The notes beneath the pieces are model-generated. The model did no database searches. It saw nothing but the letters and a program-made list of their open reading frames with translations, and was not told where the DNA came from. Position numbers and translations under genes: made by a program. 60,916 nucleotides of DNA, taken from positions 1-60,916 of the forward strand of contig JAURNL010000074.1 of NCBI GenBank assembly GCA_030830205.1, written 5' to 3'. Numbering within the stretch: position 1 is the first letter of the stretch; each line of letters begins with the position of its first letter. Below, one piece after another: positions 41,968 to 43,924 of the stretch. The DNA is from Crocinitomicaceae bacterium (GTDB taxonomy: Bacteria > Bacteroidota > Bacteroidia > Flavobacteriales_D > Crocinitomicaceae).

Positions 41968-41997
41968 TTGTTTTTCAGGTAATTATTAGTACCTTTG
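41968..41997 (+). promoter_or_regulatory. Promoter of rpsA
   Basis: TTG at 41968-41970, a 19-base spacer and TACCTTTG at 41990-41997. It is a complete match to the Bacteroidota promoter consensus. Transcription should start near 42002, giving a leader of about 91 bases. Confidence 0.75.
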
Positions 41998-42001
41998 CAC
42001 C

Positions 42002-42092
42002 TCATTTTGAAGTGCGCTCCCTGAAAGCGCCATTTATTTTGTTTAACAACTTTCTGATATTCAGGGTATTAGAAATACAAATTTTTCGCCTC
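42002..42092 (+). promoter_or_regulatory. Structured 5' leader of rpsA with a possible pseudoknot
   Basis: The untranslated region between promoter and ATG. A hairpin GCGCT/AGCGC (42014-42018 and 42026-42030) presents the 7-base loop CCCTGAA (42019-42025). A perfect complement, TTCAGGG, lies at 42060-42066. Pairing the loop with that site would form an H-type pseudoknot, or an alternative helix, ending 26 bases ahead of the start codon. An in-frame GTG at 42012 would make this region coding, but the resulting extension has no S1 family character. Autogenous control by S1 is known in other bacteria. Here it is an inference. Confidence 0.55.
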
Positions 42093-43880
42093 ATGGCCAA
42101 ACACATTGAACCGCAGGGATCTGCAGATTTTGATTGGGAAGCACTCCAATTGGATGGCTACAATCAAGTAGAACGCTCCGAACTAGGAGATCGCTACGAA
42201 AAAACCTTGACTTCCATCATGGAAAAAGAAGTTATTCAAGGTACCGTTGTAATGATCAACAAAAAAGAAGTAATCATCAATATTGGTTACAAATCTGAAG
42301 GTGTTGTTGCTGCTAACGAATTCCGCTATAATCCAGACCTCAAAGCTGGTGATGTAGTAGACGTATACGTAGACTGCCTTGAAGACAAAACAGGTCAATT
42401 AATCGTTTCTCACCGTACGGCACGCATGCACAGTGCTTGGATTCGAGTAAACGACGTATTGCGCACAGGTGAAATCATCACAGGTTTTGTAAAATGCAGA
42501 ACCAAAGGTGGTTTAATCGTTGACGTATTCGGAATCGAAGCGTTCCTTCCAGGTTCACAAATTGACGTGAAACCAATCCGTGACTATGATATCTATGTTG
42601 GTAAAAACATGGAATTTAAAGTAGTTAAAATTAATGAAGAATTCCGCAACGTAGTTGTTTCTCACAAAGCACTTATCGAAGCAGAACTCGAAGAACAAAA
42701 GAAACAAATCATCTCTGGCCTTGAAAAAGGACAAGTACTTGAGGGTGTTGTTAAAAATATCACCTCATACGGTGTCTTCATCGACCTTGGTGGTGTTGAC
42801 GGGCTTATCCACATCACAGACCTCTCTTGGGGACGAGTTACTCACCCAGAAGAAATGCTCGAGTTAGATCAAAAAATCAATGTGGTTATCCTCGACTTCG
42901 ATGATGACAAAAAACGCATTGCTCTTGGCTTGAAACAATTGCAACCACATCCATGGGATTCTCTTGACACTAACCTAAGTGTTGGTGACAAGGTAACTGG
43001 AAAAGTAGTTGTTATGGCAGATTACGGCGCATTTATTGAAATCGCCGCAGGTGTTGAAGGTTTGATTCACGTATCTGAAATGAGCTGGTCACAGCATCTT
43101 CGTTCAGCTCAAGATTTCTTAAAGATTGGTGATAGCGTTGAAGCTGTTGTCTTGACTTTAGATCGTGAAGAACGCAAAATGTCTTTGGGCATCAAACAAC
43201 TCATGCCAGATCCATGGAATGATATCGAAATCAAATATGCAGTTGGCACACGCCATAGCGCTAAAGTTCGCAACTTCACTAATTTCGGTGTATTTGTAGA
43301 ACTCGAAGAAGGTGTCGATGGTCTTATCCACATTTCAGATCTTTCATGGCAGAAAAAAATCAAGCATCCATCTGAATTCTGCAAAGTTGGTGACGCAATG
43401 GAAGTACTCGTACTAGAAATTGATCGTGACAACCGCCGCATTTCTTTGGGCCACAAACAACTCGAAGAAAATCCTTGGGATGTATTTGAAAACACATTCT
43501 CAGAAGGAAGTATTCACAGCGGGACAATCATCGATATGAAAGACAAGTCTGGTATCGTTGCATTGCCATACGGTGTAGAGGGTATTTGCCCATCAAAGCA
43601 CCTTCGCAAAGAGGATGGCTCAAACGCTAAACTTGAAGAAACACTTGACTTTAAAGTGATTGAATTCAACAAGGACGCGAAGAAAATTGTATTATCTCAC
43701 ACCAGACTTTTCGAAGAAGGTGAAGACAAACCAACTACTCCAAGTAAAGGAGGTAAAAAAGCTGGGGGCAATTCCACTGACCAAGCAGTTAAAGCGATCA
43801 ACCAAAGTGCAGAAAAATCTACACTTGGTGACCTCGATGCACTTGCAGGTTTAAAAGAAAAAATGGAACGAGGCGAATAA
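42093..43880 (+). CDS. rpsA: 30S ribosomal protein S1
   Basis: Binds mRNA on the 30S subunit. A 595-residue protein with six S1 repeats, beginning near residues 46, 126, 215, 300, 387 and 474 (VIQGTVVMINKKEVIINIG, VLEGVVKNITSYGVFIDLG, KVTGKVVVMADYGAFIEI, and so on). Repeats 3-5 carry the classic GLIHI/VS-LSW ending. Repeat 1 and repeat 6 (ALPYGVEGICPSKHL) are divergent. A short lysine- and glycine-rich tail follows. The ATG at 42093 is chosen because the promoter and a structured leader lie upstream. Since Bacteroidota genes mostly lack Shine-Dalgarno sites, S1 is expected to matter for initiation. It is followed by a strong terminator. Confidence 0.96.
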   Translation: MAKHIEPQGSADFDWEALQLDGYNQVERSELGDRYEKTLTSIMEKEVIQGTVVMINKKEVIINIGYKSEGVVAANEFRYNPDLKAGDVVDVYVDCLEDKTGQLIVSHRTARMHSAWIRVNDVLRTGEIITGFVKCRTKGGLIVDVFGIEAFLPGSQIDVKPIRDYDIYVGKNMEFKVVKINEEFRNVVVSHKALIEAELEEQKKQIISGLEKGQVLEGVVKNITSYGVFIDLGGVDGLIHITDLSWGRVTHPEEMLELDQKINVVILDFDDDKKRIALGLKQLQPHPWDSLDTNLSVGDKVTGKVVVMADYGAFIEIAAGVEGLIHVSEMSWSQHLRSAQDFLKIGDSVEAVVLTLDREERKMSLGIKQLMPDPWNDIEIKYAVGTRHSAKVRNFTNFGVFVELEEGVDGLIHISDLSWQKKIKHPSEFCKVGDAMEVLVLEIDRDNRRISLGHKQLEENPWDVFENTFSEGSIHSGTIIDMKDKSGIVALPYGVEGICPSKHLRKEDGSNAKLEETLDFKVIEFNKDAKKIVLSHTRLFEEGEDKPTTPSKGGKKAGGNSTDQAVKAINQSAEKSTLGDLDALAGLKEKMERGE

Positions 43881-43900
43881 GCCAATCCATTTGTAAAATA

Positions 43901-43924
43901 AAGGGGGCTTTGGCCCCCTTTTTT
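43901..43924 (+). terminator. Rho-independent terminator of rpsA
   Basis: An 8-base-pair, nearly all G-C stem AAGGGGGC/GCCCCCTT (43901-43908 and 43913-43920) with the tetraloop TTTG, followed by a T-run to 43924. Confidence 0.92.

Follow-up and report, generated by a model that had tools for sequence, protein, structure and literature searches.

How is the supply of ribosomal protein S1 controlled in bacteria that mostly start translation without Shine-Dalgarno (SD) pairing, and does the leader of rpsA take part? S1 is the ribosome's main mRNA-binding protein. Bacteroidia ribosomes generally fail to recognise SD sequences, as passages of PMC9976891 state, so that control of S1 supply becomes a basic question, and a leader that is conserved and has unambiguous rules of pairing would make such control testable. 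A preliminary description of the DNA studied here (the window, meaning the whole stretch of 60,916 nucleotides) had pointed to a hairpin upstream of rpsA whose loop is complementary to a downstream site, and had proposed an S1 control element, a proposal that we find plausible.

The start codon and the promoter-like sequence lie where they had been placed, and the downstream gene codes for S1 according to Pfam (S1, E 7.8e-79, five stretches). Its neighbours are an AlgH-like gene on the upstream side and a Fur-family gene on the downstream side, with the following layout:

41968..41997, + strand: predicted promoter, from sequence (TTG at 41968-41970, 19 nt, TACCTTTG at 41990-41997)
42093..43880, + strand: rpsA, ribosomal protein S1 (595 aa), ATG at 42093, Pfam S1 match
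43900..43921, + strand: probable intrinsic terminator after rpsA, a 9-pair stem with 6 G-C pairs and a T-rich tail, from a consensus scan

The promoter-like sequence follows the consensus TTG-N19-TAnnTTTG. TT(T/C)G(C/T), picked by script, is found at about the matching distance in all 83 leaders of the window's family (Crocinitomicaceae-like), a count in which the script chose a motif inside the leader in at least two cases (L066 and L080). The terminator scan returned three such sites between 41900 and 44000, where 1.8 were expected. With promoter-like and terminator-like sequences flanking rpsA only, the gene seems to be transcribed alone. Its leader of about 90 nt is long for the group, since 5' leaders there have a mean of 65 nt and a median of 24 nt (PMC9723704, consulted in part).

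Within this leader we distinguish the following parts:

42009..42080, + strand: match of covariance model R1 (E 4.5e-9), to whose seed the window sequence belongs
42014..42030, + strand: hairpin P1, 5-bp stem GCGCT (42014-42018)/AGCGC (42026-42030), loop CCCTGAA (42019-42025)
42019..42025, + strand: 5' strand of kissing helix K, CCCTGAA, from loop-swap tests and pair counts
42031..42050, + strand: AU-rich linker between P1 and P2, single-stranded, ending in C before TTTC
42051..42075, + strand: hairpin P2, stem TTTCTGATA/TATTAGAAA (42051-42059/42067-42075), 9 bp including one G-U, loop TTCAGGG
42060..42066, + strand: 3' strand of kissing helix K, TTCAGGG, from loop-swap tests and pair counts
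42076..42080, + strand: UACAA directly 3' of P2 (AUACAA including A75), invariant in the family
42088..42097, + strand: start-codon hairpin P3, GCC (42088-42090)/GGC (42095-42097), with a loop UCAU that holds the A and U of AUG

The letters first reported for the stem, loop and complement (GCGCT, CCCTGAA, AGCGC, TTCAGGG) are exact. The H-type pseudoknot or alternative helix suggested for them is not borne out: TTCAGGG does not lie in a single strand, being enclosed as the loop of a second hairpin, P2 (94.1% of P2 cells are paired in the relatives' alignment), which makes the interaction a kissing of two loops. As both 7-nt loops are complementary end to end, P1, K and P2, of 5, 7 and 9 bp, can coexist, and comparison makes P1-K-P2 a well-supported intramolecular kissing complex of two 7-nt loops. 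When 42031-42092 was shuffled 20,000 times with its dinucleotides preserved, the complementary 7-mer appeared in 146 of the shuffles (0.7%); by itself this is suggestive, and it is the comparison with relatives that decides. Among the 154 hairpins with a 5-bp stem and a 7-nt loop on both strands of the window, P1 is the only one whose loop is matched by an exact complement no more than 62 nt away. The folding energy of the leader is ordinary (z -0.91, 35 of 200 shuffles folding equally well or better). P3 is present in the centroid fold, with 3 bp only, and R1 has its sole window match at E<=10 at 42009-42080. A stretch overlapping the promoter spacer, TTCAGGTAATTATTAG (41974-41989), resembles TTCAGGGTATTAG at P2 (42060-42071), perhaps by chance.

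To follow the pairing in relatives, 111 loci of the family were reduced to 84 distinct rpsA leaders, and to 83 once L074, whose leader is cut by a contig end, was dropped. When P1 and P2 were chosen ignoring K, 82 leaders could be parsed, L095 being the exception. A separate parse of the family gave nothing for L087 and L088, which another had covered, and its results for L091 and L093 are probably wrong. Loop-loop pairing over 5 bp or more with a score of 11 was found in 90% of the 82 leaders, against 13.9% of 4,700 chimeras obtained by swapping between leaders less than 70% alike. For 25 representatives less than 80% alike, the summed loop score stood at z=10.7 relative to random re-pairing and was reached in 0 of 100,000 trials. 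K occurs in 51 different sequences (for instance CCCTGAA/TTCAGGG, CTCTATT/GATAGAG, GTTCGG/CCGAAC and GTTTCG/CGAAAC), and the compensatory change that the preliminary description had called for between 42019-42025 and 42060-42066 is seen in relatives, both strands varying together.

A model alignment for which P1 and P2 were fitted and K was not agrees with these counts. It comprises 80 sequences, 78 of them distinct; 79.7% of its cells pair, compared with 64.7% after shuffling, and its covariation score is 0.494, compared with 0.233 shuffled and 0.07-0.22 slid. Changes on both sides are present at five of five K pairs, five of five P1 pairs and six of eight P2 pairs, with 68.9% of P1 and 94.1% of P2 cells paired. 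MAFFT aligned P1 poorly, so that fixed K columns fit only some rows of this alignment (67.2% of K cells paired); covariation of K was judged by loop swaps, with swaps between families in place of a tree-aware test. Parsed with K in the score, 76 of 81 leaders have a kissing helix that begins no more than 2 nt from the 5' edge of loop 1, and in 78 of 81 its far end is no more than 2 nt from the 3' edge of loop 2. The linker between the hairpins measures 10-21 nt in these 81 leaders, is T/A-rich and carries C at -1 in every one of them; by our reckoning, about 10 nt is the shortest linker able to span three stacked helices. From these data the folded element is almost certainly real, and the rpsA mRNA very probably begins with a cis-acting structured leader of ~90 nt. 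One family leader (L080) comes from CP034120.1, a complete genome titled Glaciecola amylolytica, a gammaproteobacterial name; its rpsA is 85% identical to that of the window and has a kissing leader, and the record is probably mislabelled.

The plan reaches beyond the family. In leaders from other families the sequences differ and the P1-K-P2 plan is unchanged, which we assessed by an architecture test: an anchor-free P1-K-P2 search from promoter to start codon compared with 100 dinucleotide shuffles, a pass being at most 1 in 100. For the rest of the order, 25 of 49 other-family genomes were sampled, giving 24 leaders (G223 has no full rpsA); for the rest of the class, 99 genomes gave 87 leaders after removal of four lacking a match (G000, G022, G207 and G372), one with a split gene (G355) and seven already in the phylum sample. 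Passes numbered 19 of 24 in the order, with all 12 sampled families represented, and 29 of 87 in the class, from 19 of 49 families; 22 and 59 leaders respectively were scorable. By chance about 0.4 and 1.2 passes are expected at the nominal rate; random segments, of which 10 of 300 pass (above the nominal 2%), would predict about 0.7 and 2. Among 12 further class leaders from the phylum sample, two pass (L147 and L148) and two come near (L143 at 4/100 shuffles, L145 at 3/100). The Flavobacterium-like L144 and L146 fail (13/100 and 14/100), and an anchored parse finds a loop match of 7-8 bp in each. With P2 anchored on TACAA and K ignored, 49 of 58 leaders were parsed, and re-pairing of their loops gave z=15.6 (0 of 100,000).

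A few class passes are probably false, such as that of L250 from an AT-rich genome of 0.5 Mb (G327), whose 13-bp kissing match in the free search is a probable composition artefact. Outside the class (L154-L168), 14 of 15 loci had no such promoter in range and one gave no parse. The architecture test was failed by 5 of 24 order leaders, by 58 of the 87 class leaders and by 10 of the 12 from the phylum sample, some of them too short or promoterless in range, so rpsA can manage without a detectable element. At E<=0.01, model R1 recovers every one of 80 family loci and none of 20 from other families, and in order genomes it matches 9 of 60, all from the window's family; it therefore fails as a wide detector, and the wider range rests on the direct leader tests.

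The element is tied to a single gene. With stricter filters, R1 detected it 82 times, in 81 of 120 family genomes, and at least 79 of these 82 matches have their end no further than 48 nt from an rpsA match of the same contig and strand, among the matches listed. Those in G063, G137 and G147 have no adjoining rpsA among the matches listed; in G063 the rpsA match on the list starts at contig base 32. Two R1 matches occur in a single genome, G045, which has two equal-score rpsA copies facing each other (C1:32403-34190, + strand, and C1:35377-37164, - strand), each with a leader; the pair is perhaps an inverted assembly duplicate. After automatic extraction, 77 of 106 rpsA leaders (many of them related) passed the architecture test as against 0 of 51 non-rpsA leaders, a control from which nine leaders of region loci were left out; at a looser threshold of 5/100, three of the 51 pass. 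What is found has the make-up of a ribosomal protein leader, covarying, structured, placed 5' of a ribosomal protein gene and confined to rpsA.

Two further parts accompany the kissing body. ATACAA follows P2 in all 83 distinct family leaders, TACAA lying 11-18 nt before ATG, and TACAA adjoins P2 in all 19 order leaders that reach significance and in 20 of 30 in the class tally, one copy included. GCC upstream together with ATGGC is likewise found in 83 of 83 family leaders. Elsewhere the arms around the start codon differ, being TCAGA/TCTGA, TTCAGA/TCTGAA and TCAGC/GCTGA in one family (f17), TGTCA/TGACA in L134 and CTCAG/CTGAG in L209. When upstream ends were re-paired with coding starts, in a set where some start codons are uncertain, 66 TACAA leaders outside the family gave z=4.2 (2 of 100,000), 46 leaders without TACAA gave z=2.7 (543/100,000), and 38 window ORFs used as a control gave z=-0.3. 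The start-codon hairpin is therefore probably genuine, with moderate support, and not universal.

By reading, the window leader contains no AGGAG between 42031 and 42092. Of 57 rpsA leaders without the element, 9 have an SD-like motif; of 48 that possess the element just one does, and there the motif falls in a P2 arm (Fisher p=0.02, with no correction for relatedness). In some class families an SD-like AAGGAG or AAAGGA and a short rpsA leader replace the kissing element; the SD-like leaders are L142, L152, L153, L227, L240, L243, L244, L245, L248, L249 and L258. Such starts are odd in a phylum said to avoid SD pairing.

Most likely, the leader is a cis-acting element that controls the translation of rpsA. 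Our preferred reading is autogenous feedback by S1, to which we give a probability of about 0.58; the part of S1 in it is suggested by the gene specificity, by the AU-rich nature of the linker and by published work on pseudoknots, many of which bind S1 tightly (PMC7708055, consulted in part). E. coli S1 is a repressor of its own mRNA, acting through a start region that lacks an SD sequence and has a specific fold and AU-rich strands; these strands are thought to let S1 recognise that mRNA (sections of PMC10931766). Once made, the rpsA mRNA would fold into P1-K-P2, a compact body spanned by an AU-rich single strand and followed by UACAA and the weak start-codon hairpin. Ribosome-free S1 would bind the kissing body and the strand formed by linker and UACAA, the stretch 42031-42050 being the putative S1-binding site, and would keep the 30S subunit off a start codon already held in a small hairpin; when S1 is scarce or carried by 30S, the leader would open and be translated. 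Feedback of this kind would suit bacteria mostly devoid of SD pairing. Gene specificity would argue for S1 as the ligand only via the logic of ribosomal protein leaders, and a structure required for translation without feedback would yield identical covariation.

The main rival to S1 feedback, which we regard as distinctly less likely, is a constitutive standby or docking site, where the kissing body and single strands would recruit S1-bearing 30S and raise rpsA translation without feedback. It can draw on the 5' pseudoknot of tisB mRNA, needed for binding of 30S and S1 (PMC7708055, in the part seen), and on the rpsO pseudoknot, melted on the 30S by E. coli S1 (PMC3858243, likewise in part), as well as on the SD-like motif being commoner in rpsA leaders that lack the element (9/57 vs 1/48, relatedness ignored); the SD-like starts of these genes fit either S1 feedback or a standby site. 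However, the element occurs at one gene only, though a general enhancer might be reused, and self-regulation is common among ribosomal protein genes. Another ligand, be it a different ribosomal protein, an assembling 30S particle or some other RNA-binding protein, could explain why the invariant UACAA looks like a motif read by a protein or ribosome, yet rpsA is apparently transcribed alone with a terminator-like site behind it, and we hold this to be improbable. The predicted promoter would put the element at the extreme 5' end of the mRNA, which would also suit a fold shielding that mRNA from 5'-end-dependent decay; a simple hairpin would be enough for that, leaving the kissing pair, UACAA and the start-codon hairpin unexplained, and such a role seems more improbable still.

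That P1 and the T-rich linker act as a weak terminator is very improbable. The terminator scan does list P1 in the window, and a T run follows P1 in 38 of 81 parsed family leaders, 27 of which also have at least three G-C pairs in P1; but 54 of the 81 miss the terminator rule at P1, a T run follows P2 in just one, and K takes the loop of P1 and not its stem, which offers no obvious antiterminator. On these counts a P1 attenuator is not conserved. Chance pairing or a coding constraint, with no conserved RNA at all, we consider next to negligible: the 0.7% chance for a single sequence, the ordinary folding energy and a GTG-started frame (42012-43880) that is fused to rpsA and crosses the window leader would allow it, whereas the loop-loop covariation and the variation of leader lengths by single bases speak against it, and within the reach of comparison it is refuted. 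A coding extension through the leader was itself rejected, as the reading frame of rpsA is interrupted by stops between promoter and ATG in 75 of the 83 family leaders.

Several known systems resemble the element in part. The gammaproteobacterial rpsA start region, as presented in sections of PMC10931766, likewise combines rpsA with an SD-less start, a folded leader and AU-rich single strands; it belongs to another phylum, the word 'kissing' occurs nowhere in the main text of that review, and autogenous control is shown for E. coli rpsA whereas we only deduce it for the kissing leader. Ribosomal protein leaders with a kissing-loop pseudoknot are described for S15 (rpsO) in Actinomycetales (PMC4137082, in part), and a kissing form has been proposed for M. 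tuberculosis rpsO (PMC8470358, in part), with gene, ligand and phylum all different from those of the rpsA element. The tisB standby site has a similar layout, a 5' pseudoknot and a single strand binding S1 and 30S (PMC7708055, in the same part), in a toxin mRNA and far upstream of the start, not at a ribosomal protein gene. From the same phylum, leader candidates for S4, L13, S15 and S16 were found by covariation in Bacteroidia/Flavobacteria (PMC7247131, in part). The rpsA element would add a second RNA solution for rpsA control besides the gammaproteobacterial one. To our knowledge, a kissing-loop architecture is uncommon among ribosomal protein leaders. The kissing complex of RNA I and RNA II that controls ColE1 plasmid replication has 7-nt loops, two of them able to pair in full as in the window, but on two separate RNAs instead of one mRNA.

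Tentatively, and with some doubt, one may go further and picture a widespread and old kissing-loop switch that senses S1, free S1 being read by a leader that exposes or hides the start-codon hairpin in mostly SD-less bacteria. In lineages with an SD-like rpsA start, control of S1 supply may then have shifted away from sensing S1 and towards a mechanism like the bS21 feedback that is known for rpsU.

Concerning earlier notice of the element, no candidate for S1 stands in Table 1 of a 2020 set of 20 ribosomal protein leader candidates (PMC7247131), in whose main text 'rpsA', 'kissing' and 'pseudoknot' each occur 0 times, and the word rpsA is absent from the main text of a 2010 account of 104 motifs (PMC2864571). 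In the literature searched, which lay mostly outside subscription papers and supplements, we found no description of a kissing element of rpsA. For Flavobacterium psychrophilum, 64 structured leaders are listed in a supplement to PMC9723704, of which we consulted other parts, so that an earlier notice is possible. A ribosomal protein leader with a kissing-loop fold thus appears real, widespread and, as far as this literature goes, undescribed. The window has no Rfam match at gathering, its two matches at E<=10 being far below the gathering scores. In 20 relatives Rfam gave Flavo-1 (RF01705) alone, outside the element; it matches at 1170-1255 in L144 and 1180-1255 in L146, upstream of an rpsA promoter near 1340, and has no match in the window. 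These two loci, with Flavo-1 just before the rpsA promoter, are from genomes of other families, probably Flavobacterium-like.
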